A DNA stretch of 64,000 nucleotides, taken from assembly GCA_021790195.1 (NCBI GenBank), contig JAJYIF010000008.1, forward strand, positions 1 to 64,000, in the 5' to 3' direction. Both the position numbers and the translations under genes were made by a program. Position 1 is the first letter of the stretch. Each line of letters starts with the position of its first letter. Under the pieces are notes generated by a model, which was given only the letters and a program-made list of their open reading frames with translations, had not been told where the DNA came from and did no database searches. The stretch is from Nitrospirota bacterium (GTDB lineage: Bacteria; Nitrospirota; Thermodesulfovibrionia; Thermodesulfovibrionales; UBA9159). This document shows positions 32,461 through 59,590 of this stretch, piece after piece.

Positions 32461-32487
32461 TTACATAACGTGTCTGAGGGAGGCAAG

Positions 32488-34841: not shown

Positions 34842-35664
34842 GAGGTTCTATCGTTTCGATGCGAAGCCTTTCAGCAAGACCCCTGATCCCAGGTTTCTCT
34901 ATATGTCCAGGACCCATGAAGAGGCCCTTGCCCGGCTGCAATATGCCGTGGAGGAGAGGGAGATCGCCGTGCTGACAGGCGAGATAGGGTGCGGCAAGAC
35001 GACCCTTACGAGGGCGCTTATGGATTCCTTCGATGAGACCTACAGGGCCATTGTGGTGCTTAACCCGAGGCTCACCTCGATGGATTTCGTGAGGACCATA
35101 GGCGAAAGGCTCCAGTGCGGTTCTGCGTCGGACCGGAAGAGCGACCTTCTGAATGTGATCTATGCGAAGCTTTATGAGGATTATAAGGCCGGGATAACTC
35201 CCGTTCTTATAATCGATGAGGCCCATCTGATCCCTTACAGGGAGACTTTCGAGGAGATAAGGCTGCTCACGAATTTTCAGATGGACGACGACAACCTCCT
35301 TGCGCTTGTCCTTGTCGGCCAGCCTGATTTGATGAAGAAGCTTCAACTTCCCTCCCTTGCCGCCCTGAGGCAGAGGGTGGGGCTTTTTTGCCGGCTCGAA
35401 ACCCTGGGAGAAGATGAAATAAAGGCCTACGTCGAGCACAGAGTTGCCGTCGGAGGAAGGTCGGAGCCGGTCTTTACCGATGCTGCGATCCGCGCACTTT
35501 ACAAATACTCCGAAGGCATTCCAAGGGTCATAAACAGCCTCGCGGGCATGTCGCTCCTTGAAGGTTTTGCAAGAGATGCTGCGCTCATAGACGAGTCGGT
35601 TGTCCGTTCAGCCGCAAAGGAGATCGGTCTCAATGGATATCGCAAAGATAAGGAAGAAGTTTAG
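34834..35664 (+). CDS. ExeA/GspA-type AAA ATPase
   Basis: The 276-residue ATPase starts with FYRFDAKPFSKTPDPRFLYM, the N-terminal mark of the ExeA (GspA) family, and has Walker A GEIGCGKTTLTRAL, Walker B VLIIDEAHLI and a C-terminal helical part (GIPRVINSLAGMSLLEGF). ExeA proteins help assemble secretion or pilus secretins, or act as DNA-transposition ATPases. This copy ends without the peptidoglycan-binding domain and has no membrane helix. It overlaps cheA by eight bases and cheW by 32, so it is truly embedded in the chemosensory operon. Its role there is not known. Confidence 0.85.
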   Translation: MYKRFYRFDAKPFSKTPDPRFLYMSRTHEEALARLQYAVEEREIAVLTGEIGCGKTTLTRALMDSFDETYRAIVVLNPRLTSMDFVRTIGERLQCGSASDRKSDLLNVIYAKLYEDYKAGITPVLIIDEAHLIPYRETFEEIRLLTNFQMDDDNLLALVLVGQPDLMKKLQLPSLAALRQRVGLFCRLETLGEDEIKAYVEHRVAVGGRSEPVFTDAAIRALYKYSEGIPRVINSLAGMSLLEGFARDAALIDESVVRSAAKEIGLNGYRKDKEEV

Positions 35665-36256
35665 GGGGGTCCCTGGCCAGGAGGCTGAAAGGCCTGCTGC
35701 GGAACAGGAGGACGTACCCCGGGGCGCCGGGGAAACGGAGTTTCCTGAAAACCCTGTCCCTCCTCCTCCTCCTCCTCCTCCTGTTGTAGAGGAAGCGAAA
35801 GAAGCGGAGGCCGGTGAAGGGGATGAGGACGCTACGGTGCAGCTCCTCGCGTTCAAACTCGCAAAGGAAGAATACGCCTTCAGGATCGATGAGATAGAAG
35901 AGATCGTGAGGCCCCAGGGAATCACGATAATACCGAACACCGGGCCGCATCTGCTAGGCATCACCTCTCTTAGAGGGAAGATTATCCCAGTGATAGACCT
36001 GAAGACGATGCTGTCTCTCGGGTCGCCGGGGACGGCCGGAGACAACAAGGAGAAGATACTGATCCTGAAAGGACCGAAAGGTCCCATTGGGGCGATGGTG
36101 GACAGCGTCATCGGGGTGATAAGGCCGTCCGCCTCCAGGATCGTCGAAACGCCGCTTCATCTGCCGGACGCAGAGATGAAGTTCATCGAGGGAGTCGCGA
36201 TAGTGGACGGCAGGTTCGTCTCGGTCATACGGATGAGCGAGGCGGCGGCGATATAA
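35633..36256 (+). CDS. cheW: CheW-like adaptor with proline-rich N-terminus
   Basis: This 207-residue protein has a 70-residue disordered start containing a run of eight prolines, then one CheW domain (QLLAFKLAKEEYAFRIDEIE, HLLGITSLRGKIIPVIDLK, GPIGAMVDSVIGVIR). CheW joins receptors to CheA. The ATG at 35633 follows AAGGAG and lies inside the ExeA-type gene; 11 further codons are open upstream. The long Pro-rich tail is unlike ordinary CheW and may bind another component. Confidence 0.9.
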   Translation: MDIAKIRKKFRGVPGQEAERPAAEQEDVPRGAGETEFPENPVPPPPPPPPVVEEAKEAEAGEGDEDATVQLLAFKLAKEEYAFRIDEIEEIVRPQGITIIPNTGPHLLGITSLRGKIIPVIDLKTMLSLGSPGTAGDNKEKILILKGPKGPIGAMVDSVIGVIRPSASRIVETPLHLPDAEMKFIEGVAIVDGRFVSVIRMSEAAAI

Positions 36257-36307
36257 GGCAAAAGGAGAAAATTTTGATGACGAAAATTTATCATATACGG
36301 AGGCTTT

Positions 36308-39160
36308 ATGAGAAAGAGACTTGAATTCAAGGTCCTCGCAATCGTTGCTGCGATGCTCTTGACCGTGGCGCTCCTCTCGGGGCTTATATCGGCCTACATA
36401 CAAAAAGACACGGTCCTTGACATTACGCAATCCGGCACCGAGACTACGGCCCGCATGGTCCTCGACAATATCGAGACGACCATGCTTGCCGGAAAGGCCG
36501 ATGTCACCCGCAAGAACGTGGAGGACATGAAGCAGATCCGGGGAATGGAGGCGATCACGGTCATAAACTCCGAAGGCAGGGAAGCGTTCAAGCCGGACGC
36601 CCCCATAACCGATGCGGGTCTCATAAGCGAATTTGAGAAGGGCAAGCTGAGCAAGCCCGAAAGAAAGAACGGACTGCTCATCTATTCCCTGCCGCTGAAG
36701 AATGCGACGCGTTGCCAGGAGTGCCATGGGGCCGATAAGCCGATACTGGGCGCCGTGAAGGTCTCGCTCTCACTGGAGAAGGAGTTCCAGAAGGCCAGGA
36801 CTCAGATTGTGTCCATGGTCGCCGCGACGGTCGTCGTGTCGCTGCTCATCAGCATTGTCCTCTGGCTCCTGCTCAGAAGGATGGTCATATCCCCCATTAA
36901 GGCGATCAACTCGGCCGCTGCCAAGATCTCTGGCGGGGACCTCTCCTTCGATGTGAAGGTGGCGGGCGACGACGAGATAGGGACGATGAGCGGTATTTTC
37001 AAGGAATCCTTCAGGTCTCTCGGCGTGATCCTCCAGAGGCTCAAGGACCTCTCGGGAAGAATCTCCAGGGTGACACAGGATGTCGAGAAGGAGTCGAGGA
37101 AGGTCGTGAACGGAGCGGAGGTGGAGGCGGAGGCCCTTTTGAATATATCCAATTCCGTTTCCGAGCTGAACTCTACTGCCTCTGAGATCTCCGAAAGCAC
37201 GGAGGGCCTGGCGGCCTCAGTGGAGGAGACATCGGCGTCTATGGACCAGATGGTCTCGAGCATCAACAACGTCAATGAGAACATCCACGACCTGTCGACT
37301 GCCGTCGAGTCCACTTCTTCTTCCATAGAGGAGCTTTCTGCTACGATCAAGGAGGTGGCCTCCAATGCCGAAGAGCTCGCAACTGCATCAGAGGAGACCC
37401 TTTCGGCCATTTCCGAGATCACCTCGGCGATCAAGGAAGTGGAGCTCAACGCGAAGGAGTCTTCAAGACTTTCGGAGAAGGTCACGAGCGATGCAGCCAC
37501 CTACGGCATGGTGTCGGTCGACAAGACCATAGAGGGCATGAAGAACATAAAGGCGTCGGTCGAGCGTACCGCGGACTTTATCACCAAACTCGGGGGGAGG
37601 TCTGACGAGATAGGGAAGATACTTAATGTCATAGACGAGATCACCGATCAGACGACCCTCCTGGCCCTGAACGCTGCGATATTGGCGGCGCAGGCCGGGG
37701 AACACGGGAAGGGGTTCTCGGTCGTGGCCGACGAGATCAAGGACCTTGCGGAGAGAACGGCCTTTTCTACTCAGGAGATAGCCTCCCTCATTCAGGCCGT
37801 TCAGCAGGAAGTAAGAAGCTCTGTGGAGGCGATGCACGAAGGCCTCCGCTCTGTCGAGGAAGGTTTCAAGCTCTCGCGCGAGGCCGGCGACTCCCTGAGA
37901 AAGATCCTCGACAGCTCCAAAAAATCTTCCGAGATGGCGCTTTCCATAGAGCGCTCCACTACCGAGCAGTCCAAGGCGGCGAAACTCGTCACAGAGGCGA
38001 TGGAGCGCGTCAGGAACATGACCGACCAGATCGCCAAGGCGACTTCTGAGGAATCTAAAGGCATCCTCCTTATAATAAAGGCCACTGAGAAGATGCGCGA
38101 CGCGGCCCACCAGGTCAGCAAGGCGACCGAGGAGCAGACGGTCAGCAGCCGCCATATATCAAAGGCGATGGAGTTCGTCTCGGAGCGGAGCCAGCAGATA
38201 TCGAAGGCCCTCGGCGAGCACAAGATAGGCACGCAGCACATATTGAACCTGACGGACGGGCTGAAGGGCATTCCGCTGGACAACAGGAAGCTCGCCTTCA
38301 GGATCACAAATACCCTCAGGGACCTTCATCAGGACTCGGAGCTGCTGAAGATGGAGATGGAGCGTTTTAAGTTTTCGGAGGAGAGGGGGGCGGTTCTCAA
38401 ACTCGGGGTCCTGCCCCTGGAGTCTCCTTCGACCATGTTCAAGAATTTTCTGCCCCTCGCGGATTTCCTGAGCAAGAAGCTGGGCAGGACGGTCGAGCTC
38501 AAGGTCGCCGTGGACTTCGAAGGCGCCCTGAAGGACATAGGACAGAACGTCACACAGTTGTGCGCGCTGGGGCCTGCCACTTACATAGAGGCCCAGCGGA
38601 GATACGGCGTCAAGGTGCTGGTAAAGGGGCTTCGCGACGGAAAGCCGTACCACCGCTCGGTCATTATAACGCGGTCGGACACCTCCATAAGGTCTGTTTC
38701 GGACATCAGCGGGAGGTCCTTTGCCTTCGGAGACGTGCATTCCTCTGCCGGCTATATCGTCCCTAGACTGATCCTGAAAGACGCGGGCATCGAACTGGAG
38801 GACCTGCTCAGCCACAGCAATCTGGGGCAGCACGACGCCGTTGCTCAGGCGGTGCTTCGCGGGGATTTCGATGCTGGCGCCGTTATAGAGTCCACCGCAA
38901 ACAGGTATAGGGACCGCGGTCTGCGCTTCGTCCATCTTTCGGAAGAGATCCCCGAGATGAACATCTGCTACAACACTTCTGTTGTCGACAAAGAAGTGTC
39001 GGCCATAAAGACCGTACTGATTTCGCTCAATGATTCTTCGGCTGAGGGGGCCGTGATCCTGAAATCCATCGACAAGGACTATACGGGCTTTGTCGAGGCC
39101 GACGACGGCGACTACAGCGGCATCAGGTTCAAGATGTCGAAGCTGGGAATGATAACGTAA
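36308..39160 (+). CDS. Methyl-accepting protein with periplasmic haem motif and C-terminal PhnD-like domain
   Basis: The 950-residue protein has a membrane helix (about 8-30), a periplasmic domain of about 135 residues that contains CQECH (136-140), a CxxCH haem c motif, a second helix (168-190) and HAMP (190-243). The long methyl-accepting coiled coil has its conserved tip around residues 430-470 ([20 protein letters not shown]). Residues 695-950 resemble the PhnD/phosphonate-binding periplasmic-protein fold ([59 protein letters not shown]). By topology this binding domain is in the cytoplasm. The signals could be redox state or a small ligand outside and a second ligand inside. CGGAGG precedes the ATG. 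Confidence 0.88.
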
Positions 39161-39173
39161 GGGCGGTGCCGAA

Positions 39174-41234
39174 ATGATAAAGTTCAAAAATTATTCCCTG
39201 GTCACGAATTTTACCGTCATCATATTGTTGATACTCGTGGTGGGGCAGGGAGTTCTTTATACCTGGCTCCTCCTTTACCAGAAGAGTTATCTCGAAAAGA
39301 GGCTGAGGGCGGAGGTCGCCGCCATGGCCCGGCACGTTGCGGAGATGGTTTCCGAAGACACGACCAACGCAAAGCCTTTGGACCAGTTTCTCGATGTTCT
39401 TATTAAGGAAGGGCTTGTCCTGTCCGTGACGGTCTATGACGCCTCCGGGAAAACGCTTGTTTCGAAGGCCCAGACCGAGAACATGAGCGAACCGGACAGG
39501 GGCGGGCTGAACCCATACTCCATCTTTTACATCCCCTCCGTGAACACGGTCGAGGTCCCGCTGAAGGACGGCGAGGGGAAGGTCGAAGCGGTCTACAGCG
39601 GCCGGTCCGTGAACGAGCTCATGAAACGTTTTCTTTTTGTCCCGCCTTTCATGCAGGGTGTCACTTTTCTGGTTGTCGTCTATGCCATAGTCAGGTTCTT
39701 CAGGAAGAAAGTGTCCGACCCGGTGAGGAGTATCAACGACGCCCTCGGAAGGATCACCGCAGGAGACCTGACCGTGGAGATGCCCGAGACCGCCGACAAG
39801 GAAATAGGGAGCATCGTCAAGGGCCTGCAGTTCCTTGTCGAGAGCCTCTCTTCGACCATTGCGCGGTCCAATTCGCTCTCTGGCAACGTGGCGGCCGCAA
39901 TGGCCCAGCTTACCGTCACCCTTAACGCGGTCGGGGAGAGGGCCAGGAAGCAGTCCAAGTCTATCGACGATGTTGTTTCGATGATCCGGGAGGTAAGCGA
40001 ATCCCAGAAGAGGACGACGGACAATACGGACAAGCTCTCCCGCGTCTCTTCGGAGAACGTGGCCTCCCTGCAGGAGATGAAATCCGTGGCCCAGGAGATC
40101 GCGGTAAGCACCGGGAGGCTGTTCAAATCGAGCGGCGATTCCTACGCCATGATAGCCGAGCTTTCACAGACGGCAAAGGCGATTGCCGAAAGCTCCGGAG
40201 AAGTCTCCCGCGCCGTGGAAAACACCGCTACTTCCGTAGAGCAGATAAGCGTCTCTCTGAACGAGGTCAGGGACAATACGAAGAGGTCTTCGGATCTGAG
40301 CGCGACTGTGAGGCAGCTCCTTACCGACCGGGGCACGCTCGCCGTGGCGGACGCGATAGAGGCCATGGAAAAGATAGTGGATGAGGTGAACTATTCCGCC
40401 AAGATCATAACCCGTCTCGAACAGCGCTCCAAGGACATCGAGAAGATCCTTTCGGTAATAAAGGAGGTGACCGAGAAGACCAACCTGCTCAGTCTGAACG
40501 CGGCCATACTTGCGGCCCAGGCGGGGGAATACGGCAAGGGCTTTTCGGTGGTGGCCGACGAGATACGGTCTCTCTCCGACAGGACCTCGTCGTCGGCAAG
40601 GGACATAGCGAGTATCGTTAAGTCCATACAGACGGAGATCCACGACGCAGTCGGCGCGATAAACCAGGGCGTCATAAAAGTCGAAGAGGGCAAGGACCTT
40701 ATCTTCAAGTCGGGGGAGGCGATGGGCGAGACCCTCGAGGCCGCTCAGAAGTCGGTACAGATGGCCCGGCTGGTGGAGAAGGCGACCGCTGAACAGGCCG
40801 AGGGGCTGCGCCAGATACGCATGTCCATGGAGAACGTGAAGGTGATGATAGAGCAGGTGGTGAATGCCACCGAGGAGGAGAAGCGGGGTTCCAGCCATAT
40901 GCTCGAGAGCATAAGCGACGTGAAGGAGGTGGCGGAGCTTACCAAGAAAGCGACCGAAGAGCATGCAGTGGGGACGAATGTAATTTCCAGGAACCTCGAG
41001 CTGACCCTTGAGATGGCGTCACAGATAAACCAGGCCGCTATGAGCCAGCTCAAGGTCAATGAGGACGTGGTTTCAGCAGTGGAGCAGATGAAGAATGCCG
41101 GCGTCTCGGCGGTGCGGGACATGGAAGAGGTCACGCTTTCTTTCGGCACCCTCAGGAGCGAGGTCGAAAGCCTGAAGAAGGAGATGGAGGCATTCAAAAC
41201 GTCGGAAGCACGCAGCTCCAGGGGTTCGAGGTAG
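39174..41234 (+). CDS. Methyl-accepting chemotaxis protein
   Basis: The 686-residue receptor has a first membrane helix ([20 protein letters not shown]), a periplasmic domain of about 125 residues with a small PAS/Cache-like pattern ([17 protein letters not shown]), and a second helix ([16 protein letters not shown]). A HAMP domain and a full signalling coiled coil follow, with the tip [20 protein letters not shown]. It ends in a Ser/Arg-rich tail without the CheR-binding pentapeptide. The gene is 13 bases after the haem-type receptor and resembles it in the cytoplasmic part, so the two probably act in one array. No haem motif is present here. Confidence 0.93.
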
Positions 41235-41241
41235 ACTTCCT

Positions 41242-41727
41242 ATGCCGAGGGTCGCGGTTGCGCGCGCAGGAGATGAGCATTTCGGTATCGACATCAACCG
41301 TGTTGTCGAGATACTGAAGGCGCAGCGTATATACCTTTTGCCCCAGTTGCCGTCCTTTCTTGCCGGCGTGGTCAACATCAGGGGAGATGTCATACCGCTT
41401 CTTGACCTGAGAAAGCGCTTTGGAATAAGCTCGTCGTCCGAGAAGGAGCGCATTGTAGTAGTGAGGTGGGGCAAAGAAAAGGTGGGGCTGCTTGTGGACG
41501 GCGTTAAGGAGATTGTCAACCTCCAGCCCGAGGAGATCACAGGGCCTCCTTCAATGTTCAGGGGGCTGAAGACGGAGTACCTTACCGGGATCGGCAAGAA
41601 AGGGGAGAACATAATAATCTTGCTGAATATCGACACCCTCCTCAGCTCGGAGGAGAAGATACAGATGGAAGGCATAACTAAGAATACGGGAGCCGAAAAT
41701 GGAAGAGACAAGAAGGCCGCCGGCTGA
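41242..41727 (+). CDS. cheW: CheW-like adaptor, second copy
   Basis: This 161-residue single CheW domain has RVAVARAGDEHFGIDINRVV, PSFLAGVVNIRGDVIPLLDL and VGLLVDGVKEIVNLQPEEI. Unlike the first CheW in this operon it has no Pro-rich extension. Having two CheW proteins and two receptors suggests pairing of each adaptor with a receptor, or a mixed array. It overlaps the HEAT-repeat gene by 29 bases. Confidence 0.93.
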   Translation: MPRVAVARAGDEHFGIDINRVVEILKAQRIYLLPQLPSFLAGVVNIRGDVIPLLDLRKRFGISSSSEKERIVVVRWGKEKVGLLVDGVKEIVNLQPEEITGPPSMFRGLKTEYLTGIGKKGENIIILLNIDTLLSSEEKIQMEGITKNTGAENGRDKKAAG

Positions 41728-43672
41728 AGGGGACACCGAGATACGCAGAAAGGCGGTACTCGAACTCAGGGGCAGGCAATCTACTGTCGCAGTTCGGATG
41801 CTCCTTAAGGCGATGGAGGACCCAAGCTGGAGGGTGAGGAAGGCCGCCTCAGAAATCCTCACGAATGAATACCCGGTCGAACACTACGCGGACGGGCTTA
41901 TCAAGCTTCTGGCAATCGAAGAAAATGCCGGGGCAAGGAATTCAGCTATAGAGACGCTGGTCAGACTGGGGAAGAAGGTCACGACACATCTCGTGGACGC
42001 CTACGATTCTTCCGGCAGGGACGTGAGGAAGTTTATCGTGGACATCATAGGCGAGGTGAAGGACAAGAAGGCCCTTCCCCTTCTGCTGAAGGCGTTGAAG
42101 GACGAGGACGACAACGTCAAGGCGTCGGCGGTCGAGCACCTCGGTCAGATGGGAGACCGTTCGGTCGTCGATGCCCTGATAGAGATCCTGAACAGCGGTG
42201 ATATCTGGACGGCCTTTCCCGCTGCCGATGCCCTCGGAAGGATAGGGGACAGGAAAGCCATTCCGGCCCTTCTCGGAGCACTGAAGGTCAAGGCACTGAG
42301 GGAGCCGGTGCTCAGGGGTCTCAGCCATTTGTCGGCGCCCGAGACCTTGGAGCATATCGTGCCGCTCCTAGCAGATGCATCTAGGAGCATACAGGAAGAG
42401 ACGATGATAACGGTGGGGACCTTCTACCATAAAGGGGTCCCGGCAGACTTTATCTCCGGGACGATACACAGGCTTTGCGGCCCCGAAGTAATCCACAAGA
42501 TAGCGAAACATGCGTGGTCCGCCAAGACTGATGTGAGAACGGCCGCAATACTGCTTTTGGGACTTATGCAGGACGAAAGGGCGCTCGGTCCGCTCCTCGA
42601 TCTTTACTCAGAAGAAAGCGTTGCCGAGGACGTTAAAAAGGCCCTTGCATTCATAGGAAAGGGCAGACCGGAGTCTCTCATCGGGCTCCTTCGTTCGGAC
42701 AATGAGTATCAGAGGCGGTTGATCGCAGAGGTGGCGGTGGAAGTCGCGTCCCCTCTTTACCGCCAGCTTTTTGAGGACCTCCTTTCCGACAGGGACGGAC
42801 ATGTGAGGGCCTTTGCGGCGATAGGCCTTTCGAGGCTGCGGGACAAAGGCGCCGTGCAATCTCTGAAGAGGCTGCTTTCCGATCCATACGAGGATATACA
42901 AGAGGCCGCTGTCGCGGCCCTTAGCGACCTCAGGGAGGGTCTTGATGTGGAAGAGTTCGTGGCCTGTCTGAGGGCAGAAGACGCAGCTCTGAGGAAGAAT
43001 GCAGCCTTTCTCCTCGGAAGGATAGGGGCGAGGGACAGCATTGCCGCACTCGGTTTTGCGCTCAAGGACGCTGACGTTACGGTCAGGCAGGCAGTCGTGG
43101 AAGCGCTCTCTTCCCTCAAGACCGAAGAGGCGGCGAAGTACCTCGTCTTTGCGCTCACTGACGAAAACCCGCACATAAGGGCCTCTGCGGCCCTGAGCCT
43201 CGGCTCCATGGAAGGCAGGAGGCCCGATCCCCTGATCCTTTTGCTTTCAGACCCGGACGATTCGGTAAAGGTTGCGGCGGTCAGGGCGATAGGCATGACA
43301 GGAGACAGAAGCGCGGTCGGACATCTTGTAAATATGCTTGTGAACCAGAACGGCTTCGTCGTGACGACTGCAATAGAATCCCTCGCCAGGCTCGGAGGGG
43401 AGGAGGCGGGAAATGCGATCGCAAACATGCTTGGCACGAACGACCCCGAGATAAGGCGAACCGCCATACGCTCTCTATCCTGCTTCAGCGGTTTTGAAGA
43501 GAGAGTTCTTTCATTTCTCCATGATCCGGACTGGGCCACGAGGATCGCAGCGCTCGAGACACTGAGCAGGTGCGCCGCCGGGAGGCTTGATGAAAAGATC
43601 GGGGAGCTGTACGACCGGGAGGAGGACCCAGCGGTGAGAAGGATCATGGAGGAGCTTTTTGGCGTTCGGTAG
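41699..43672 (+). CDS. HEAT-repeat protein of the chemosensory operon
   Basis: The 657-residue protein is made almost wholly of HEAT/PBS-lyase-type repeats of about 30 residues (for example ALPLLLKALKDEDDNVKASA, ALIEILNSGDIWTAFPAADA, ALGFALKDADVTVRQAVVEA). It has no signal peptide, membrane helix or catalytic motif. Such alpha-solenoids serve as docking platforms. It lies between cheW and cheR, overlapping both (29 and 14 bases), so it is an integral part of the operon. A role as scaffold for the array or as target of CheY is plausible; this is inference. Confidence 0.88.
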   Translation: MEETRRPPAEGDTEIRRKAVLELRGRQSTVAVRMLLKAMEDPSWRVRKAASEILTNEYPVEHYADGLIKLLAIEENAGARNSAIETLVRLGKKVTTHLVDAYDSSGRDVRKFIVDIIGEVKDKKALPLLLKALKDEDDNVKASAVEHLGQMGDRSVVDALIEILNSGDIWTAFPAADALGRIGDRKAIPALLGALKVKALREPVLRGLSHLSAPETLEHIVPLLADASRSIQEETMITVGTFYHKGVPADFISGTIHRLCGPEVIHKIAKHAWSAKTDVRTAAILLLGLMQDERALGPLLDLYSEESVAEDVKKALAFIGKGRPESLIGLLRSDNEYQRRLIAEVAVEVASPLYRQLFEDLLSDRDGHVRAFAAIGLSRLRDKGAVQSLKRLLSDPYEDIQEAAVAALSDLREGLDVEEFVACLRAEDAALRKNAAFLLGRIGARDSIAALGFALKDADVTVRQAVVEALSSLKTEEAAKYLVFALTDENPHIRASAALSLGSMEGRRPDPLILLLSDPDDSVKVAAVRAIGMTGDRSAVGHLVNMLVNQNGFVVTTAIESLARLGGEEAGNAIANMLGTNDPEIRRTAIRSLSCFSGFEERVLSFLHDPDWATRIAALETLSRCAAGRLDEKIGELYDREEDPAVRRIMEELFGVR

Positions 43673-44531
43673 AGAAGAGACAATACCCCTTGTGGAAGAC
43701 GAATTCAGACTCATCAGGGACCTGATAAAGGGCGAAATCGGGCTGTTTTTTGACGACGGTTCAAGGTTCCTCCTCGAGCGCAGGCTTTCGAGAAGACTAA
43801 AGCTTCATCACATCAACGATTTCAGGGACTATTACCGTTTTCTCCTTTACGACAGGAAGAGAGACGAGGAGATGACTGCGCTCGTAGACCTCCTTACCGT
43901 GAACGAGACCTTTTTTTTCCGGGAACAGAGACAGCTCAAGGCCTTCAGCGAAGAGATACTTCCCGAGATAAGGGAGACCAACAGAGAGAGGAAGAGATTG
44001 CGGGTATGGTCGGCGGGCTGTTCCACCGGAGAGGAGCCCTATACAGTGGCGATGCTCGTGCTGGAATACGGCCTCTCCGGCTGGGACGTAGATATCCTGG
44101 GCAGCGACATCAACCAGAGGGTCCTCACGGCGGCGAGACAGGGCCTTTACAGGAAGAATTCCTTCCGGGTCACCGAGAAGCATTACATGGACAAGTATTT
44201 TAAGGAGGACGAGGGGACCTTTCTTATATCCGAGGATGTCAAGCGTCTCGTCAGCTTCAGCCATCTCAACCTCCTGGACCCCTTCAAGGTCAGGTTCGTA
44301 GGGAAGATGGATGTGATATTCTGCAGAAATGTTCTGATATATTTTGACCAGACTGCAAGGAAGAAGGTGGTGGACAACTTTTACGACAGTCTTGTGGATG
44401 GCGGGTATCTGCTGCTGGGGCATGCCGAGTCTCTTATAAACATATCCACATCTTTCGCGCTGAAGCATCTGAAGAACGACATGGTGTACCAGAAACCGAC
44501 AAGTCAGAAGGTTGCGGCAAATGCACGGTAA
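43659..44531 (+). CDS. cheR: Chemotaxis protein methyltransferase CheR
   Basis: The 290-residue enzyme methylates receptor glutamates using S-adenosylmethionine. Seen: the N-terminal helical domain (EFRLIRDLIKGEIGLFFDDG), the SAM site VWSAGCSTGEEPYTVAML, DILGSDINQRVLTAAR and CRNVLIYFDQ near the C-terminus, with LLLGHAESL. The start is TTG at 43659, preceded by GGAGGAG five bases upstream and lying inside the HEAT-repeat gene. It has no TPR extension. Confidence 0.94.
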   Translation: MAFGREETIPLVEDEFRLIRDLIKGEIGLFFDDGSRFLLERRLSRRLKLHHINDFRDYYRFLLYDRKRDEEMTALVDLLTVNETFFFREQRQLKAFSEEILPEIRETNRERKRLRVWSAGCSTGEEPYTVAMLVLEYGLSGWDVDILGSDINQRVLTAARQGLYRKNSFRVTEKHYMDKYFKEDEGTFLISEDVKRLVSFSHLNLLDPFKVRFVGKMDVIFCRNVLIYFDQTARKKVVDNFYDSLVDGGYLLLGHAESLINISTSFALKHLKNDMVYQKPTSQKVAANAR

Positions 44532-45615
44532 GATAAAGGTCCTCATAGTGGACGATTCATCGTACAGCCGGCAGACCATTAAGGAGATGATCGAGACGGA
44601 TGCCGAGATAGAGGTGCTGGGGGTGGCGTCGAACGGTGTGGAGGCGATGGCTAAGACGGTCAAGCTCAGACCGGACGTCATAACGCTCGATTTCGAGATG
44701 CCCGAGATGGACGGGTTCAGCTTTCTCAGGTGGATCATGAAAGACAGACCGATGCCGGTGATAATGGTTACGTCTTTTTCTGATTCTACGACTGTTTTTA
44801 AGGCTCTCGAATTCGGCGCTGTCGACTTCGTAGCAAAACCTTCCAAGAGGGCCTCGATGGAGCTCCACAACATTCAGGATGATCTTATTCAAAAGATTAA
44901 GAGCACGCGGCATCTTAAAATGGACAGGGTCGGTATATCGAGCGATCCTGTCGAACAGGCCCCGGAGGACGACGAGAGGGTGGCATATGCTCTTGATCAG
45001 GACGGTCCCTCGCAAAACATCAGGGTTGTAACCATCGGAGCATCTACCGGAGGTCCCACCGCTCTGCAGGTCGTTCTGACAAGGCTTCCGGCTAAGTTCC
45101 CCGCGGCGATCCTTATCAGCCAGCACATGCCGAGGGGTTTTACAAGACCTTTCACCGACAGGCTTGCCAAACTGTCCAGGATCGGGATAAAAGAGGCTGC
45201 CGACGGCGACCTTGTGGAGCCGGGGAACGCCCTTGTCTGTCCGGGCGGCTATCATATGACCCTAAAGAGCAAAAACGGCCTCGTCCGGGTTGCGCTGAGA
45301 GAGCCGGCGCAGAAGGACAGGTACATCCCTTCGGTGGACCTTATGATGTCCCATACGGCGGAACAGTTCGGTCCTTCGGCCATGGGGGTCGTCCTCACCG
45401 GCATGGGCAACGACGGCAAGAACGGCATAGTGGAAATAAAGAGGAAAGGTGGGTATACTATAGCAGAAGCAGAATCGACTGCGGTGATTTTCGGCATGCC
45501 CAATGAAGCGATAAAGACCGGCGCCGTCGACAGGGTGTTGCCCCTGTACAAGATAGCTGGGGAGATTACGATGACTCTTATGGGAAAAAGGGACAAAAAA
45601 TGGAAAAAGAATTGA
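44521..45615 (+). CDS. cheB: Chemotaxis methylesterase CheB
   Basis: The 364-residue protein has an N-terminal receiver (KVLIVDDSSYSRQTIKEMIE, phosphorylation site TLDFEMPEMDG, KPSKRAS) and a C-terminal methylesterase with the catalytic Ser in IGASTGGPTALQ, His in ISQHMPRGFTRPF and Asp in LTGMGNDGKNG. It removes methyl groups added by CheR and resets the receptors. The ATG at 44521 overlaps the cheR stop by 11 bases. All catalytic residues are present. Confidence 0.95.
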   Translation: MHGKIKVLIVDDSSYSRQTIKEMIETDAEIEVLGVASNGVEAMAKTVKLRPDVITLDFEMPEMDGFSFLRWIMKDRPMPVIMVTSFSDSTTVFKALEFGAVDFVAKPSKRASMELHNIQDDLIQKIKSTRHLKMDRVGISSDPVEQAPEDDERVAYALDQDGPSQNIRVVTIGASTGGPTALQVVLTRLPAKFPAAILISQHMPRGFTRPFTDRLAKLSRIGIKEAADGDLVEPGNALVCPGGYHMTLKSKNGLVRVALREPAQKDRYIPSVDLMMSHTAEQFGPSAMGVVLTGMGNDGKNGIVEIKRKGGYTIAEAESTAVIFGMPNEAIKTGAVDRVLPLYKIAGEITMTLMGKRDKKWKKN

Positions 45616-46418
45616 CAACCAAGAAAGTTGACGAATTTCTGGAGATCTTCAAGAAGGGAGAAGAGTTCACTAAGGACCTTCTCAAGGAGAATGAAAAGCT
45701 CCGTTACAGGATCGCGGAGATGGAAGACTCGCTTCAGGGCTCGGCCGGCGAAGAAAAGGTGCGGGTTTTCGAGGAGCGCATCAAGAAGCTTGAAGACGAG
45801 GTCGTGGCCGTGAAGGAGAGGTACAAGCGCGTCGAAGAGGAGAACAAGGATTTCGCGGCAAAGTATATCGAGGTCGAAGAGATAAACAACGCCTTGGCCA
45901 ACCTCTATGTCGCAAGTTATCAGCTCCATTCGACGCTCGATTTCGACGAGGTGCTCAGGATCATAAAAGAGATCGTGATCAATCTGATAGGCGCCGAGAT
46001 ATTCGCCGTGCTTCTCATCGATGAAAAGACGAACGATATCGTCCCTGTTTCGACCGAAGGTGTTACGCTTGAGGCGATCCCGAAGGCCAGGATCGGCGAA
46101 GGGATCGTCGGCTCGGTTGCAAAAGAGGGGGAGAGTTATTTCGCAGCTGACCTGCGCGAAGGAGGAGACGTAGAGAAGGGGATGCCCATGGTCTGCATCG
46201 CGCTCAAGATAAAGGAGCACGTGATAGGCGTTATCGCGATCTATTCGTTGCTTATGCAGAAAGAGGGGTTCAACAACGTGGACTACGAACTTTTCAACCT
46301 CCTGGCGGGACATGCGGCGACCGCCATATTCTCGGCGAAACTCTATACACAGTCCGAAAGGAAACTGACTACCATACAGAGCTTTCTTGAACTCTTGAAA
46401 GAGAAGCCGAAAAAATAG
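45600..46418 (+). CDS. Coiled-coil GAF domain protein
   Basis: This 272-residue soluble protein has a long N-terminal coiled coil (about 1-100, highly charged, with EKVRVFEERIKKLEDEVVAV) and a C-terminal GAF domain (about 110-260: LHSTLDFDEVLRIIKEIVIN, RIGEGIVGSVAKEGESYFA, HVIGVIAIYSLLMQKE). No kinase or cyclase output follows. GAF domains bind small ligands or cyclic nucleotides, and coiled coils bind partners, so this may be a soluble sensor or CheY-binding adaptor. It overlaps cheB by 16 bases and is followed after eight bases by the last cheY. Confidence 0.8.
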   Translation: MEKELTTKKVDEFLEIFKKGEEFTKDLLKENEKLRYRIAEMEDSLQGSAGEEKVRVFEERIKKLEDEVVAVKERYKRVEEENKDFAAKYIEVEEINNALANLYVASYQLHSTLDFDEVLRIIKEIVINLIGAEIFAVLLIDEKTNDIVPVSTEGVTLEAIPKARIGEGIVGSVAKEGESYFAADLREGGDVEKGMPMVCIALKIKEHVIGVIAIYSLLMQKEGFNNVDYELFNLLAGHAATAIFSAKLYTQSERKLTTIQSFLELLKEKPKK

Positions 46419-46426
46419 GAGGTAAG

Positions 46427-46795
46427 ATGCCGAGCATCCTGGTCGTTGAAGATTCCCCGACAATGAGGCAGCTTATCACCTTCGCCATGAAGAGGATATC
46501 GGGGGCGAAGGTCATCGAGGCGACCGACGGCGTAGACGCCTTGAAGAAGCTTTCTTCCGAAAGGGTGGATCTCATCCTGGCGGACATCAATATGCCTGTA
46601 ATGGACGGTCTCAAACTGGTGAGCCTTGTCAAGAACAATCAGTCGTACAAGGACATACCGGTCATAATAATCACGACTGAGGGCGCCAGGGAAGACAAGG
46701 AAAAAGCCCTCGCCATTGGCGCGAATGCGTATCTCCCTAAGCCGATCCAGACCCAGGAGCTTATTAAACTCGTCAGCACCTTTCTAGGCTCTTAA
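46427..46795 (+). CDS. cheY: CheY-like single-domain response regulator, second copy
   Basis: This 122-residue receiver has ILVVEDSPTMRQLITFAMKR, the phosphorylation site LADINMPVMDG, the switch IIITTEGAREDKEKAL and the Lys in LPKPIQTQEL. The GAREDKE segment is close to that of the first CheY (SSEDKER), so the two are related. The start follows AGGAGGTAAG. As the last gene of the operon it is a likely output regulator or a phosphate sink. Confidence 0.92.
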   Translation: MPSILVVEDSPTMRQLITFAMKRISGAKVIEATDGVDALKKLSSERVDLILADINMPVMDGLKLVSLVKNNQSYKDIPVIIITTEGAREDKEKALAIGANAYLPKPIQTQELIKLVSTFLGS

Positions 46796-52903: not shown

Positions 52904-52971
52904 AAGGAGCGCGGGCAGCTCGGCCAAGACGGTCAAGCAGAAGCCCTTCATTGATATTGAGGCGGGGAACT

Positions 52972-53913
52972 ATGACGGCAAAGACTCTTTATTGGCTTCA
53001 GTGTGGCGGATGCGGCGGGGACAGCATGTCCTTTTTCAACATAGAGTCTCCCAACCTGGCAGATCTTTTCAGCTATCTCGATATTGAAGTGCTGTGGCAT
53101 CCGTCTCTTTCCAGAAAGTCATCATCTGCTCACAGGTCATTGATTGATGACCTATTGGAAGGCAGACAACCCCTTGATATCCTTTGTATAGAGGGCTCTA
53201 TCATCCGCGGCCCTGGCGGTACGGGGATGTTCAACACCTTCGAAGGTCAACCCAAGAAGAATCTTGTAGCTGCCCTCGCCGGAAAGGCCGGCAGCGTGGT
53301 CGCGGTAGGCACCTGCGCCAGTTTCGGCGGAATAGGCGCGGACGGTGACATTGAGGCCACCGGGGCGATGTTCACCAAGACAAAGAAGGGCGGCTTCCTG
53401 GGTGAGAATTTTCTTTCGGCAAGCGGCACGCCGGTCATTAACCTGCCCGGATGTCCCTGTCATGGCGATGTCCTCTGCGGCGCTTTGACAGCGCTCTGCA
53501 CCGCCACGAAATTGCCATTGAACGAGTACAACGTTCCTCTCCAATGGTATGGATTGTTGGTTCATCAGGGATGTGTCAGAAACGAATATCATGAATACCG
53601 CGTGGAGGAAAAGGATTTCGGCGATAAGGGCTGCCTCTTCTTTCATCTGGGATGCCGGGGACCGATTTCCTACGGTCCATGCAACAAGCTGCTCTGGAAC
53701 CGCCGCAGTTCCAAGACGCGTGTAGGCGTTCCGTGCGTCGGATGCACAAGCCCGGATTTCCCTCAGAGTTACCCCTTTTTCCATACGCGTAATCTTGCAG
53801 GTATTCCGCTCGAATTGCCGGATGGGGTTGACAGGGCCCATTATATGGCCTACAAAGCCATGGCTGCCGCAGCTGCCCCGATCAGACTGAAGAAGAGAGA
53901 AACAGAAGTTTAA
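52972..53913 (+). CDS. [NiFe] hydrogenase small subunit, group 2-like (sensory type)
   Basis: The 313-residue subunit has no Tat signal peptide, so it stays in the cytoplasm. It begins TLYWLQCGGCGGDSMSFFN, then IEVLWHPSLS, DILCIEGSIIRGPGGTG, VAVGTCASFGGIGADGD and NLPGCPCHGD, the ordered Fe-S ligands of small subunits. The C-terminal Cys set is GCLFFHLGCRGPISYGPCNK, then VGVPCVGCTSPDFPQ. The WHPSL block and MSFFN start are typical of group 2 (uptake/sensory) enzymes. At the proximal cluster the usual second Cys is Asp17. It passes electrons from the Ni-Fe site of the large subunit encoded 13 bases downstream. The start at 52972 fits the family; seven upstream codons are also open. Confidence 0.9.
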   Translation: MTAKTLYWLQCGGCGGDSMSFFNIESPNLADLFSYLDIEVLWHPSLSRKSSSAHRSLIDDLLEGRQPLDILCIEGSIIRGPGGTGMFNTFEGQPKKNLVAALAGKAGSVVAVGTCASFGGIGADGDIEATGAMFTKTKKGGFLGENFLSASGTPVINLPGCPCHGDVLCGALTALCTATKLPLNEYNVPLQWYGLLVHQGCVRNEYHEYRVEEKDFGDKGCLFFHLGCRGPISYGPCNKLLWNRRSSKTRVGVPCVGCTSPDFPQSYPFFHTRNLAGIPLELPDGVDRAHYMAYKAMAAAAAPIRLKKRETEV

Positions 53914-53926: not shown

Positions 53927-55414
53927 ATGGCATCCAAGAGAATAAGCGTTTCGATGAACCGAGTGGAGGGCGACCTCGAGGTCCGAACCGAGATCAAGGG
54001 CGGCGTAGTAACAGACGCCTGGTGTTCCGGGACCATGTTCAGGGGATTCGAAAGGTTGCTCGTGGGCCGCGGCTCTTATGACGGCCTTGTCATCACGCCT
54101 CGCGTATGCGGGATTTGCAGTACAAGCCATCTCGTAGCGGCATCAGGGGCACTGGATATGATAACAGGGGCGAGGGTCCCGCCCGATGCCATAAGAATCC
54201 GCAATATAGCCCAGATCGCTGAACATATACAGAGCGATATCCGCCACTATGTGCTTATGTTTGCCGTAGACTTCACAAATCGCTCTTACAAGGGCCAGGC
54301 GCTGTTTGAAGAGGCGGTAGCCCGGTACGAACCCTTCAAGGGAAGTTCGGTCGTCGATGCAATCCGGGAAACAAAGAGGGTCCTCGAAATAATTGCCATC
54401 ATAGGAGGCCAGTGGCCCCATTCCTCTTTCATGGTGCCCGGGGGTGTAGCCTCGATCCCTAACAAGAGCGATCTGCTTCAGTGCAGCCTGCTCCTGCGTC
54501 AATACAGGGCCTGGTATGAGCAGCGTATCCTCGGGTGCAGCATCGAACGCTGGCAGGAAGTGAAATCCTCCAATGGGCTGGATGAATGGATCGAGGAGCG
54601 GCAGGAACACCGCGAAAGCGAATTGGGTTTCTACTTGCGCTTTGCACGTTCCGCCGGTCTGGACAAGACCGGAAGAGGGACGGCATCCTTCCTCAGCTTT
54701 GGCTCCCTTGAGAGGCCTGAAGGCACTACAGTGGGGACATCCGGCACAAAGACTCTTATTCCGGCGGGCTTTGCCCGCGCAGGCGGGATCAACGGGTTTG
54801 ACCAGGACAAGGTTTCCGAGCATGTTGCCAGTTCATGGTATGTGGATTACGAAGGGGGCAGACACCCATTTAGCGGGGAGACTCAGCCTTATGCGACCGG
54901 AAAGGAAAACGATAAATACTCCTGGGCAAAGGCGCCCCGATATGAGGGTCATTCTGTGGAGACCGGTCCCCTCGCAGAAATGGTTATTGCGGGAAATGAG
55001 CTGATCGCCGACCTGATCCGCAAAGAGGGACCAAGCGCCTGCGTCAGGGAGCTTGCCAGGCTCATACGGCCGGCCGGGCTGATTCCCGCAATGGAAGGAT
55101 GGATCACCGAGACCAATGGAGGCGGAAAGTATTACGCGGATCCGGGCAATGTGCCGGACGGCAAGGGTTTCGGGCTTACGCAGGCTTCCCGTGGAGCCCT
55201 CGGGCACTGGGTCAAGATAAAGGACCGCGTGATTCAACATTACCAGATTATTACCCCTTCGGCATGGAATTTCTCTCCCCGCGATTCCGGGGGTAGCCGG
55301 GGTCCGGTGGAAGAAGCCCTTGTGGGCACAAAGGTTCGGGATCCACAGAACCCCATTGAGCTGGAGCACATAGTAAGGTCATTCGATCCCTGTCTCGTCT
55401 GTACTGTTCATTAA
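53927..55414 (+). CDS. [NiFe] hydrogenase large subunit, regulatory (HupV/HoxC-like)
   Basis: The 495-residue subunit carries both metal-binding motifs: [10 protein letters not shown] (Cys61, Cys64, His68) and, at the extreme C-terminus, DPCLVCTVH (Cys489, Cys492, His495). The protein ends on that His. Catalytic hydrogenases have a further peptide that is cut off by a dedicated protease after metal loading; H2-sensing enzymes such as HupV and HoxC lack it. This strongly suggests a sensory enzyme that binds and slowly oxidises H2. Other blocks ([44 protein letters not shown]) are as expected. It is followed after 16 bases by a soluble histidine kinase, its likely partner. Confidence 0.93.
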
Positions 55415-55430
55415 CGCTTTGGGGAGGCTC

Positions 55431-57206
55431 GTGACAAACCACAGATCTGAATCTATTTCGGAGTCCCGGGAATCCCTGCAGTCTGAAAACAGAATGCTCC
55501 ATGAAGAAATCCGCACGGCACACAAGGCCTTCAAGATCATTTCCGAGCTCGTAGTAGAACAGTTCCAGAAGATGGAAGAGGTCCAGCTGCTTCTGGAAGA
55601 GAAGGCCGAGTCCGAGCGTCAACTGCGAGAGTCGCTGGCAATAGCAAAAGAGTCCGCCGAGTCTGCCAACCGCGCCAAGAGCACTTTTCTTGCAAACATG
55701 AGCCACGAGCTCCGCACCCCCATGAATGCGATCATCGGCTATAGCGAAATGCTCATGGAAGAAGCGGAGGACCTCGGGCAGGACGGGTTTGTTGCGGACC
55801 TGAAGAAGATCACTTTTGCAGGGAAACACCTCCTTAGCCTGATCAACAACGTCCTGGATTTTTCCAAGATCGAAGCAGGAAAGATTGAGCTTTATCTTGA
55901 AACTTTTGACGTGCCGGAAATGGTCCGTGACGTGACGGCCACAATAGGCCCGCTTGTGGATAAGAATTCGAACCGTCTGCAGGTAGCCTGCCCCGCCGAC
56001 ATAGGCGCCATGCGCGCGGACCTCACCAAAGTCAGACAAACCCTGTTCAATCTTTTGAGCAATGCCTGCAAGTTCACAAAGAACGGCACCGTGTCGCTTG
56101 AGATCAGGCGTGAGATCGGCAGGGATGATGGTCCCGACCAGTTCGTCTTTGCCGTCAGCGATACCGGCATCGGCATGACTGCGGACCAGGAGAAGAACCT
56201 TTTTCAGGCCTTTTCCCAGGCCGATGTTTCCACGACGCGACAGTTCGGCGGCACGGGTTTGGGGCTTGCCATAAGCAGGCAATTCTGCGTGATGATGGGC
56301 GGTGATATAACGGTTGAGAGCGAATACGAAAAGGGATCGACCTTTAGGGTCCGCCTCCCCGTAAATGTTTCCGCCGGGTTCGTGAAGAAAGTGGAAAAGA
56401 CTGCGGCACAGGAGGTTGCCGTATCGGCCATTCCGGATGCAAACTCCATATTGATTATCGATGACGACCCTCAGGCAAGGGACTTGCTGTCGCGGTATTT
56501 CAGAGGGTACAAGTATTCCGTGACATCTGCCGCAGGCGGCGAAGAAGGGTTGAATCTGGTCCGGCAATTGCACCCCGACGTGGTCATTCTGGATGTGCTG
56601 ATGCCCACGATGGACGGATGGGCAGTCTTGTCGGCTGTGAAGTCAGATCCGCAGATCGCGGATATCCCGGTCATAATGCTTTCCATTCTCGACAATGAGA
56701 ATATGGGGTTTGCGCTCGGGGCTTCAGATTACCTGACCAAGCCCGTAGACCGCGACCGCCTGCTCACCGTCGTCAACAAACACATGCCCGATAGAAAGAT
56801 GAGACGTGTGCTTATTGTCGAGGACGATGCCGCTACGCGGGACATGATGACGCGTATGCTCGAAGATGAGGGGTGGACCGTTTCGACGGCACAGGATGGA
56901 AAAGTCGGACTGAAGCAGGCAACGGCGATCAGGCCGTCGCTTATCTTGCTGGACCTCATGATGCCTGAGATGGACGGTTTTGAGTTTGTCGAACAGATAC
57001 GACTTGTGGAAGACCTGAAATCCATCCCGATTGTGGTGGTTACGTCAAAGGACCTGACACAGAGGGACCGCGAGCGCCTTGAAGGGAACGTGAGGCTCAT
57101 TTTCCAGAAAGGTGCGTACAGTAGAGACGATCTTCTCGGCAAGCTGCACGAACTGGTCGCTGGGTATATGTCGGTGAGACGTTCCAATGCTCCCGGAACC
57201 GAATAA
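55431..57206 (+). CDS. Soluble hybrid histidine kinase with two receivers
   Basis: The 591-residue kinase has no membrane helix and no PAS. It starts with a coiled coil (about 1-85), then HisKA with phospho-acceptor His92 ([20 protein letters not shown]), and an intact ATPase ([43 protein letters not shown]). Two receivers follow: [14 protein letters not shown] with [12 protein letters not shown], and [15 protein letters not shown] with [13 protein letters not shown]. In the second receiver the usual KP loop is FQKGAYS. HoxJ, the kinase of the Ralstonia H2 sensor, uses a PAS domain to bind the hydrogenase; here the coiled coil would have to do so. The GTG at 55431 follows GGGGAGG. Confidence 0.9.
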
Positions 57207-57224: not shown

Positions 57225-57602
57225 GTGCCAAGGATACTATTAGTGGAAGACAATGAGATGAACCGAGACATGCTCTCCCGGCGTCTTCAGCGCAAGGGGT
57301 ACGAAGTGATAATGGCGCTTGACGGCCAGGAAGGCATAAACATGGCATGTTCGGAGTCGCCTGACCTTATCCTTATGGACCTGAGCCTCCCCGTAATCGA
57401 CGGATGGGAGGCCACCCGCCGTCTCAAGGCCGCGCCCGAGACCTGCTCCATACCTGTCATAGCATTGACCGCACATGCCGTTTCAGGAGACAGGGAAAAG
57501 GCCCTCGATGCAGGCTGTGACGATTACGACATCAAGCCGGTGGAGATCACAAGGCTCCTGAGCAAGATCGAAGTCCTGCTGAACGGCAAGCCGTCGGCAT
57601 GA
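57225..57602 (+). CDS. Single-domain receiver (DivK-like)
   Basis: This 125-residue receiver has RILLVEDNEMNRDMLSRRLQ, the phosphorylation site LILMDLSLPVIDGWEATRRL, the switch VIALTAHAVSGD and DIKPVEITRLL. The NEMNRDMLSRRL helix is nearly repeated in the receiver of the cyclase encoded downstream (YEMNRDLLSRQL), so the two receivers are close relatives. GTG start after AAGGAGGGG. Its stop overlaps the cyclase start (ATGA). It is probably a phosphate shuttle or sink between the hybrid kinase and the cyclase. Confidence 0.92.
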   Translation: MPRILLVEDNEMNRDMLSRRLQRKGYEVIMALDGQEGINMACSESPDLILMDLSLPVIDGWEATRRLKAAPETCSIPVIALTAHAVSGDREKALDAGCDDYDIKPVEITRLLSKIEVLLNGKPSA

Positions 57603-59590
57603 CCAGCAGCGAGGACACAGGCGGGAATCATCCTGACTCATATTCCGTTTCCTTCATACGGCATGAGCTGAAAACGCCGATCAACGCCGTCATCGGCTAC
57701 AGCGAGATGCTCCTTGAAGACCTGGCCGAAAGCGATGACGCGGCAGGCGGCCTCCATGCCGGCATCGAGCGCATCCGTGCCGCGGGTCATGAAATGTTGG
57801 ACCTTGTTAATGACCTGAAGTTAGAGACCGATCTGGATAATCGTGGGTCCAGGTTCAGACACGCCGGTCTCAGAATAACCAATTCCGTCATTGATATTGC
57901 CGGAAAGCTCCTGGAAGAAGCTTGCGAGGGCAGGGATGTCGCCTTTACAAGTGACATCAAAAAAATCCAATCTGCCGGAAAGCTTCTGTTGTCGATGATC
58001 GAAAGCTTCTTCGGAACCGAGACGCAATCTGACTCAAGGAGCAAACTTGATTGCGCCGTGGAACCACTGTCTCACTCCGTCGATCACGCCATTCCTCTCT
58101 CCGCTTCTTCTTCGATTAAGAATGCAGAGCATGAACCGGGGGGGCAGACGATCCTCGTTGTGGACGATTATGAGATGAACAGGGACCTTCTCTCCCGCCA
58201 GCTGACAAAACAGGGTTATTCGTATGAGACCGCATGCAACGGACGCGAGGCCATAGAGATGATGCGTCTGCGCCGGTTCGATCTCGTGCTCATGGACGTT
58301 ATCATGCCCGAGATGGACGGGATTCAGGCTCTCAAAGAAATAAAGAAAGACCCTGAGCTGCACCATATCCCTGTGATCATGGTCTCTACCCTCGATGATA
58401 TGGAGAAGATCGTGCAGTGCATAGAGATAGGCGCTGAAGATTACCTGCCCAAACCCCCTGATCCCGTGCTCTTGAAGGCGAGGCTCGGGGCCTGCCTCGA
58501 AAAGAAACGGCTGATCGACCAGGAAATAGAGAGCCAGAAGAGATTGAAGAAGCTTAATGAGGCCCTCGATGTCCGAAACAGGTTTATACGTAAGACCTTC
58601 GGGCGGTACCTTTCGGACGAGATCGTGGAAAGCATCCTCGAAACCCCGGAAGGTCTGAGTCTTGGCGGCGAGAAGCGCAGCGTAACCGTGATGATGAGCG
58701 ACCTCAGGGGTTTTACTTCCATTGCGGAGAGGATCTCCCCTGAAGAGGTCGTGGCCATGATAAACATATATCTTGAGGTGATGACGAGTGTTATCATGAA
58801 GTACAACGGCACGATCGGCGACTTCATCGGCGACTCGATCCTGGCGCTGTTCGGGGCCCCGATACTGAGGGATGACGATGCAGTGCGCGCCGTGGCCTGC
58901 GCGGTAGAGATGCAGCTTGCGATGAAAGAGGTGAACAGGCGGAACCGGGGGGCCTCATATCCGGAAGTGGCCATGGGCATAGGCATCAACACCGGTAACG
59001 TGGTAGTCGGAAACATCGGCTGCAGCGAGCGGGTCAAGTATTCGGTCATGGGAAGAAACGTGAACCTCAGCTCGCGCATCGAATCCTATACCGTGGGCGG
59101 GCAAATCCTGATCTCGGCGACCACTCTTGAATCATGCCACGAAGATTTAAGGATCGACAGGCAAATGGAGGTCATGCCCAAGGGCGTCAAGGAGCCTATT
59201 GCCATATATGAGATAGGGGGGGTGGGCGGCAAGTTCAGTATCTATTTGCCGGAAAAGAAGAGGCTGAGACTTACAAAACTCAAACAGCCTTTGCCCGTAA
59301 AGTTCGCTATTATCGAGGGGAAAAACGCGGGCGCGCGGCCTTACGAAGGAGCGATATTAAGCTCGCACCGCAATGGGGCTGAAATCCGCGCCGGAATCTT
59401 GCCGGAAGTATTAACGAATCTGAGAATCTGCCTGCATGATAATGCGGGCGAGACTTCTCCCGAGATATTTGCCAAGGTTACTGAGAATGTCGCTTCCGAT
59501 CCGCCTGTCTTCAGGGTCCACTACACCTATGTCTCACCTGACGCGGATAGTCTTCTATCAGAGATTGCCGCGCGAGGCCCGAAGGTATGA
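57599..59590 (+). CDS. Class III nucleotide cyclase with HisKA-like boxes and receiver
   Basis: The 663-residue protein has, in order: a HisKA-like box with His22 (FIRHELKTPINAVIGYSEML), a second box without His (about 97-138, TSDIKKIQSAGKLLLSMIE), and a receiver (ILVVDDYEMNRDLL, phospho-site Asp233 in LVLMDVIMPEMDG). A helical linker and a class III cyclase domain (about 355-530) follow. Metal-binding Asp368 (MMSDLRGFTS) and Asp412 (FIGDSILALFGAP) and the catalytic Asn489/Arg493 (VNLSSRIES) are present. The purine-selecting Lys is Asp408 and its partner is Ser482, so whether it makes cAMP or cGMP is open. The last 100 residues form an unassigned, possibly PilZ-like, domain. No ATPase domain follows the HisKA boxes. 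Confidence 0.88.
   Translation: MTSSEDTGGNHPDSYSVSFIRHELKTPINAVIGYSEMLLEDLAESDDAAGGLHAGIERIRAAGHEMLDLVNDLKLETDLDNRGSRFRHAGLRITNSVIDIAGKLLEEACEGRDVAFTSDIKKIQSAGKLLLSMIESFFGTETQSDSRSKLDCAVEPLSHSVDHAIPLSASSSIKNAEHEPGGQTILVVDDYEMNRDLLSRQLTKQGYSYETACNGREAIEMMRLRRFDLVLMDVIMPEMDGIQALKEIKKDPELHHIPVIMVSTLDDMEKIVQCIEIGAEDYLPKPPDPVLLKARLGACLEKKRLIDQEIESQKRLKKLNEALDVRNRFIRKTFGRYLSDEIVESILETPEGLSLGGEKRSVTVMMSDLRGFTSIAERISPEEVVAMINIYLEVMTSVIMKYNGTIGDFIGDSILALFGAPILRDDDAVRAVACAVEMQLAMKEVNRRNRGASYPEVAMGIGINTGNVVVGNIGCSERVKYSVMGRNVNLSSRIESYTVGGQILISATTLESCHEDLRIDRQMEVMPKGVKEPIAIYEIGGVGGKFSIYLPEKKRLRLTKLKQPLPVKFAIIEGKNAGARPYEGAILSSHRNGAEIRAGILPEVLTNLRICLHDNAGETSPEIFAKVTENVASDPPVFRVHYTYVSPDADSLLSEIAARGPKV

Follow-up and report, generated by a model that had tools for sequence, protein, structure and literature searches.

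A tail-less, group 2c-like [NiFe] hydrogenase from a Nitrospirota bacterium as a probable H2 sensor

Group 2c of the [NiFe] hydrogenases is listed in HydDB as 'Diguanylate cyclase-linked (putative)', with its role given as undetermined (PMC5037454), and SFDxCLVCTVH has been quoted as the L2 motif of the group (PMC4853749). Large subunits lacking the C-terminal tail are described for groups 2b, 2d, 4c, 4e and 4g in one source (PMC7294309) and for groups 2b, 2d, 4c and 4e in another (PMC12134894); 2c is not named in the passages concerned. Groups 4c and 4e are tail-less catalytic enzymes (PMC7294309, PMC12134894), and HoxC is a known sensor that matures without a tail (PMC7294309). Signalling by HoxJ has also been described (PMC10073562). 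The hoxJ gene lies 3' of hoxC in C. necator. A literature search for three of the four topics group 2c, NiFe-hydrogenase, H2-sensing and cyclic di-GMP in one paper returned none, and neither did a search on HoxJ docking.

The locus described here lies in a window of 64,000 nucleotides (positions 1 to 64,000 of contig JAJYIF010000008.1, assembly GCA_021790195.1). A sequence-only reading of the window had assigned a sensing role to the hydrogenase and had taken the missing tail as the strongest argument for it. The role is probably right, but the argument from the tail was found to be weak.

The hydrogenase genes and their downstream neighbors

The genes and features of the locus are as follows:

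52951..53913, + strand: hydrogenase small subunit (Pfam NiFe_hyd_SSU_C and Oxidored_q6; best solved chain 7uur_D, Hydrogenase-2 small subunit)
53927..55414, + strand: [NiFe] hydrogenase large subunit, 495 aa (Pfam NiFeSe_Hases), group 2c-like clade, without C-terminal tail
55370..55414, + strand: C-terminus of the large subunit, then TAA (ORF reading)
55419..57206, + strand: hybrid histidine kinase, HisKA-HATPase-REC-REC (ORF, Pfam)
55467..55604, + strand: N-terminal helix of about 40 aa found in partner proteins across the clade, with a proposed role in coupling to the hydrogenase (helicity judged from the sequence pattern)
57225..57602, + strand: stand-alone response regulator receiver (Pfam Response_reg)
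57599..59590, + strand: HisKA-REC-class III nucleotide cyclase, proposed output (Pfam HisKA, Response_reg, Guanylate_cyc)

The small-subunit ORF opens at a TTG codon; the ATG at 52972 (MTAKTLYWLQ) is a likelier start. No Tat leader was seen by eye on the small subunit. Cys21, 122, 168, 208, 228, 235, 244, 262 and 265 align with cysteines of HoxB. Cys18 and Cys170 are common to the window and several close relatives and are absent in the 2a-like and 2b references; both residues are presumably close to the proximal cluster, whose ligation they could change.

The four NiFe ligands of the large subunit are taken to be Cys61, Cys64, Cys489 and Cys492. These cysteines, together with Glu14, Arg452 and His495, were conserved in the rows compared. 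The best solved chain was 7uus_A, a Hydrogenase-2 large subunit, which we take to be M. smegmatis Huc. The last eleven residues match the L2 motif of group 2c, and the TAA stop codon at 55412-55414 follows directly. This confirmed the earlier reading that the protein ends with DPCLVCTVH and no further peptide, including the coordinates and the numbering of His495. The statement that it stops exactly at its last metal ligand holds in part: His495, presumably the usual cleavage site, is the final residue, but we assume that it binds the separate Mg/Fe ion of solved structures and not the NiFe site, and it is therefore the last ligand only when that ion is counted. Gas-channel residues were uninformative as discriminators. 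Ile63 corresponds to HoxC Ile62 and is shared with the rows shown for L033, L011 and the 2a-like proteins. Met111, found where HoxC has Phe110, equals neither the HoxC nor the HoxG/HybC residue.

Pfam found no PAS domain in the hybrid kinase at E 0.001, and no GGDEF domain was found in the output of the window operon. Residues 312-653 of the cyclase protein had their best match in the helix-bearing cyclase partner of locus L059 (E 1.6e-108), residues 17-334 matched a protein of L035 (E 3.6e-68), and a cyclase domain was also present in loci L045 and L057. In the window protein, the HisKA domain stands without a HATPase (Pfam) before the receiver and cyclase, and this part may be a phosphotransfer relay or a decayed kinase. 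A chemotaxis-like cluster (CheA-, CheB-, CheR- and CheW-like proteins, two receptors and receivers) at 32470-46795, 6-20 kb before the hydrogenase genes, was read by eye from ORFs, with only CheR confirmed by Pfam.

C-terminal tails, maturation proteases and phylogeny

Scanning of genome contigs for homologues yielded 209 relatives, of which 80 were retained for analysis. The close set consists of 47 of the retained relatives (L033-L078 and L112), 44-63% identical to the window large subunit. A tail of 4-19 residues was present in all 47. The argument from the missing tail had been offered with the reservation that it would fall if the close homologues all carried an extension, and so it falls. 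Among the other 33 retained relatives, 11 were tail-less (L080, L081, L084, L085, L088, L094, L098 and L108-L111). Tails are likewise missing from L010 and L011, same-order homologues identical in sequence to L111 and L109. A search of 60 genomes of the same order or family gave a near full-length match only in G011 and G023 at E 1e-30; at this threshold the remaining genomes gave a match to the C-terminal part or none.

All five 2b large subunits among the plasmid references are tail-less and end at His. Tails of 13-16 residues were found in the three 2a-like references, the Ideonella protein, HoxG and HybC, and the tail of HoxH has 24 residues. The window's own genome encodes two further [NiFe] large subunits above the family cut-off, both tail-bearing, with 15 residues on contig C26 (group 1-type by our label) and 7 residues on contig C31 (group 3-type by our label). 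Matches on C17 and C33 (24.1 and 21 bits) were set aside at the cut-off of 25.8. The alignment of C-termini that the sequence-only reading had proposed thus bears out a difference between the tail-bearing groups 1, 2a and 3 examined and group 2b, but the close homologues are tail-bearing as well. As a general contrast between catalytic and regulatory enzymes, it breaks down with the published tail-less catalytic groups 4c and 4e.

The large subunit on C26 drew attention for another feature, as it looks like a twin-selenocysteine [NiFe] hydrogenase. At about 1561-1581 of L001, the places of both cysteines in the N-terminal Ni motif are taken by in-frame TGA codons (RI-TGA-GV-TGA-TTVHA). Of 18 group 1-type loci inspected, 14 have the double TGA followed by 143 codons free of any further stop; the motif was not found in the remaining four (L012-L015). 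A recurring small stem-loop with a weak consensus (-3.9 kcal/mol) lies downstream, and SelA is encoded in the genome together with two tRNA-Sec candidates over cut-off. Among 295 genomes from the phylum, 85 match the pattern, in part by chance; a reversed control pattern also matches some. Hydrogenase alpha subunits are listed with one Sec in a 2026 review (PMC13188914).

In a quick tree of 94 rows, the window protein falls inside a 49-row clade (SH-aLRT 100) with 42 long tails and 6 short tails of 4-6 residues. It is the sole tail-less row, all 48 others having a tail. The nearest row is L033 (63% identity, 13-residue tail), and the quick tree gives no exact sister. The GGDEF-linked rows L029, L043, L048 and L073 belong to the same clade, a clade of diguanylate cyclase-linked enzymes in which the first partner is a kinase in many rows. 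The window itself has no linked diguanylate cyclase and a class III cyclase instead. Since many rows are kinase-linked and the window has a class III cyclase, the protein is called 2c-like here and not a plain member; the name 2c is our own inference for the clade. The HydDB label may be too narrow.

The tail-less label requires three changes on the 94-row tree. Forcing the 19 tail-less rows into one clade gave a tree 236 log units worse (AU p 8e-41, for a quick tree and a tail-less group named after the tree had been seen). The loss of the tail in the window protein appears to be a separate event within an apparent group 2c clade, and not a sign of kinship with HoxC/HupV.

With our own models, a HycI-type protease match was found at most 1.5 kb after the large subunit in 40 of the 47 close loci, the exceptions being L033, L034, L037, L043, L048, L067 and L112. 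L033, L034 and L037, among the nearest relatives, have no adjacent protease, yet they retain tails of 13, 15 and 6 residues. The short tails without an adjacent protease, 5 residues in L067 and L112 and the 6 residues of L037, look like decay under way; L045, L062 and L071 are counter-cases in which a short tail is accompanied by a protease. Counting the window, 80 rows had 600 nt or more of downstream sequence. Of those with a long tail, 52 had an adjacent protease and 8 did not; of those with a short tail or none, 3 had one and 17 did not. A general statistical rule by which tail and protease are lost together was rejected, as this strong raw table contains only three supported independent pairs and is not significant given shared ancestry.

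A PF01750 search of 35 chosen entries (33 distinct genomes, G091 and G093 repeating G023 and G011) gave a match in 33 entries (31 distinct), 32 of them over cut-off, and none in G078 (L081) or G081 (L086). Proteases acting in trans are therefore common, and the absence of an adjacent protease gene does not prove the absence of processing. The single HycI-type match in the window's own genome lies about 0.7 kb downstream of the C26 large subunit, with one gene between. Removal of the tail from E. coli Hyd-2 or from the NAD-reducing enzyme results in nickel-free large subunits (PMC7294309), so tail loss is not harmless everywhere.

The partner helix and the proposed role

A helix model was seeded with residues 13-66 of the window kinase, built iteratively from its own matches and run against the 7593 ORFs of at least 60 aa in 85 loci. 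It gave 46 matches, one apiece in all but one of the 47 close loci, and none elsewhere. All matches lie on the large-subunit strand, 128-1024 nt past its end, and in the one close locus without a match, L077, 520 nt of contig remain. Among the 46 proteins with the helix, an output domain was recognized in 41, comprising 37 kinases, three GGDEF proteins (L043, L048 and L073) and one class III cyclase (L059); in the other five none was recognized. The GGDEF-EAL partner of Ideonella L029, on the sister branch, gave no match to the model. Pfam assigned no domain to the helix region. Ten genomes of our choice were searched with an alignment of 36 sequences, taken from the window and from 35 of the 46 matched loci, and each of the 11 matches was by position beside a [NiFe] large subunit. 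Ten of these are known loci already in the model, and the eleventh, absent from the model, belongs to a second hydrogenase copy in G065 (L132). The kinase was the single match in the window's genome at E 0.01, and the only one of 421 ORFs in the window to rise above noise.

A HoxJ-seeded model gave 17 matches, namely HoxJ, three other 2b-linked kinases (Azospirillum, Afipia and Fuscovulum) and 13 kinases outside the close set, all 13 coming after large subunits. This model had no match in the Rhizobium L115 kinase, one of the five 2b kinases, or in the kinases of the tail-less L080-type loci. Helices of the HoxJ type accompany tail-less hydrogenases (HoxC, L108-L111) as well as tail-bearing ones (L079, L086, L090 and L096), so partners of the sensor type are found whether or not the hydrogenase has a tail. 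Given these four tail-bearing cases and the tail-bearing homologues in the same operon type as the window, the kind of signalling partner does not go with the tail. The shared helix of the partner kinase, and not the missing tail, would be the best sign of H2 sensing.

The gene pair probably encodes a tail-less H2 sensor, a member of the group 2c-like clade, whose signal runs through a phosphorelay to a terminal cyclase. In the proposed mechanism, H2 would bind at the intact NiFe site of a presumably cytoplasmic hydrogenase. The state of the large/small-subunit complex would be passed to the hybrid kinase docked through its conserved N-terminal helix. Phosphate would then pass by way of the kinase receivers to the single-domain receiver and to the HisKA-REC-cyclase protein, the latter producing a cyclic nucleotide. 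Both the tail and the neighboring protease gene are missing in this lineage, and loading and closure of the NiFe site would therefore have to proceed without proteolysis, as they do in HoxC. The reading is favored by the intact ligands and catalytic Glu and Arg, by the kinase, receiver and cyclase genes close behind the large subunit, by the helix-bearing partners of the close loci and by the similarity of the cyclase half to the L059 partner. The isolated position in the 49-row clade, the rejection of a single tail-less clade, the raw tail/protease table and the HoxC precedent are counted in addition. Against it stand the Ideonella partner without a helix match, the five partners without a recognized output domain, the iterative nature of the helix model with 10 of 11 genome-wide matches already included, and the tail/protease link that lost its significance, with L033, L034 and L037 retaining tails. 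The HycI-type protease elsewhere in the genome and the nickel-free Hyd-2 and NAD-reducing enzymes also count against it.

A substitution or frameshift in sequencing or assembly could have produced the TAA, as the stop is known from a single assembly and all 47 close homologues have a tail. Reading past the TAA in frame gives 11 residues and then TGA, a peptide unlike the tails of the homologues: Arg occupies tail position 2, where 46 of the 47 have I, L, V, F, M, A, C, W or Y and none has Arg. The +1 frame after the stop leads into the kinase ORF, whose start at TTG 55419 or GTG 55431 is 4 or 16 nt past the stop, with GGGGAGG at 55421-55427, and no protease gene was found before the kinase in the ORF list or by Pfam. 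Indirect evidence thus indicates a genuine stop, and an artefact is very improbable.

The tail-less end resembles that of all five 2b references, and the earlier comparison with HoxC and HupV implied a 2b regulatory hydrogenase, in line with Ile63. The protein is however nested in a tail-bearing clade, the tail-less rows do not form one clade, Met111 differs from the HoxC residue, and CLVC is found where the five 2b references have CMVC. In addition, the kinase scores 60.4 bits with its own clade's helix model, and the HoxJ-type model does not fit it (E 9.2). Filing as 2b because of the missing tail is ruled out by the tree and the helix type, and there is hardly any chance that the large subunit belongs to this group. 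Of the two features of group 2a, tail and maturation protease, neither was found at the locus. The large subunit could still be a catalytic, electron-delivering group 2 uptake enzyme, placed before a kinase operon by chance and neutral in its tail loss; the Huc-type Hydrogenase-2 is the best solved relative, the catalytic residues are intact, and HoxG without its tail is still active, at lower levels (PMC7294309). Chance placement fits poorly with the helix on the partners in 46 of the 47 close loci. By contrast, the 15 genome loci of the 2a-like clade (our label) gave no HK, REC, GGDEF, EAL or cyclase hit in the 2.5 kb following the large subunit. A catalytic role is therefore considered unlikely.

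Returning to the sensor reading, a missing tail alone cannot mark a hydrogenase as a sensor, and the presence of a tail does not rule out sensing; the partner helix is a better marker, easily searched and tested. We lean slightly towards a broader view of the 2c-like hydrogenases as a plug-in H2 sensor, in which a helix of about 40 residues is the adaptor connecting one [NiFe] module to interchangeable outputs (hybrid kinases, diguanylate cyclases and class III cyclases), and in which this lineage has dropped a tail-and-protease checkpoint retained by the rest of the clade. A tail-less enzyme in a tail-bearing clade offers a way to ask why most [NiFe] enzymes retain a proteolytic checkpoint, and the lineage would, if this view is true, be a natural experiment on the need for proteolytic maturation in a sensor.

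Comparison with known hydrogenase systems

The window shares with HydDB group 2c the L2 motif, the clade with GGDEF-linked rows and the signalling genes downstream; it differs in the lack of a tail and of an adjacent protease and in its output of a kinase and a class III cyclase. The 2b systems HoxBC-HoxJ and HupUV-HupT are alike in the tail-less large subunit, the two subunits and the kinase partner with a conserved N-terminal helix, but the window belongs to another clade, its helix to another family, and its kinase is a hybrid with two receivers in which Pfam found no PAS. The Huc-type uptake hydrogenase of group 2a is the closest solved sequence for both subunits. The 2a-like rows differ from the window in their tails of 15-19 residues, in the protease and Hyp genes nearby, in the lack of signalling genes within 2.5 kb (15 of 15 loci scored) and, in the small subunit of the 2a-like reference, in the absence of the Cys18 that is present in the window.
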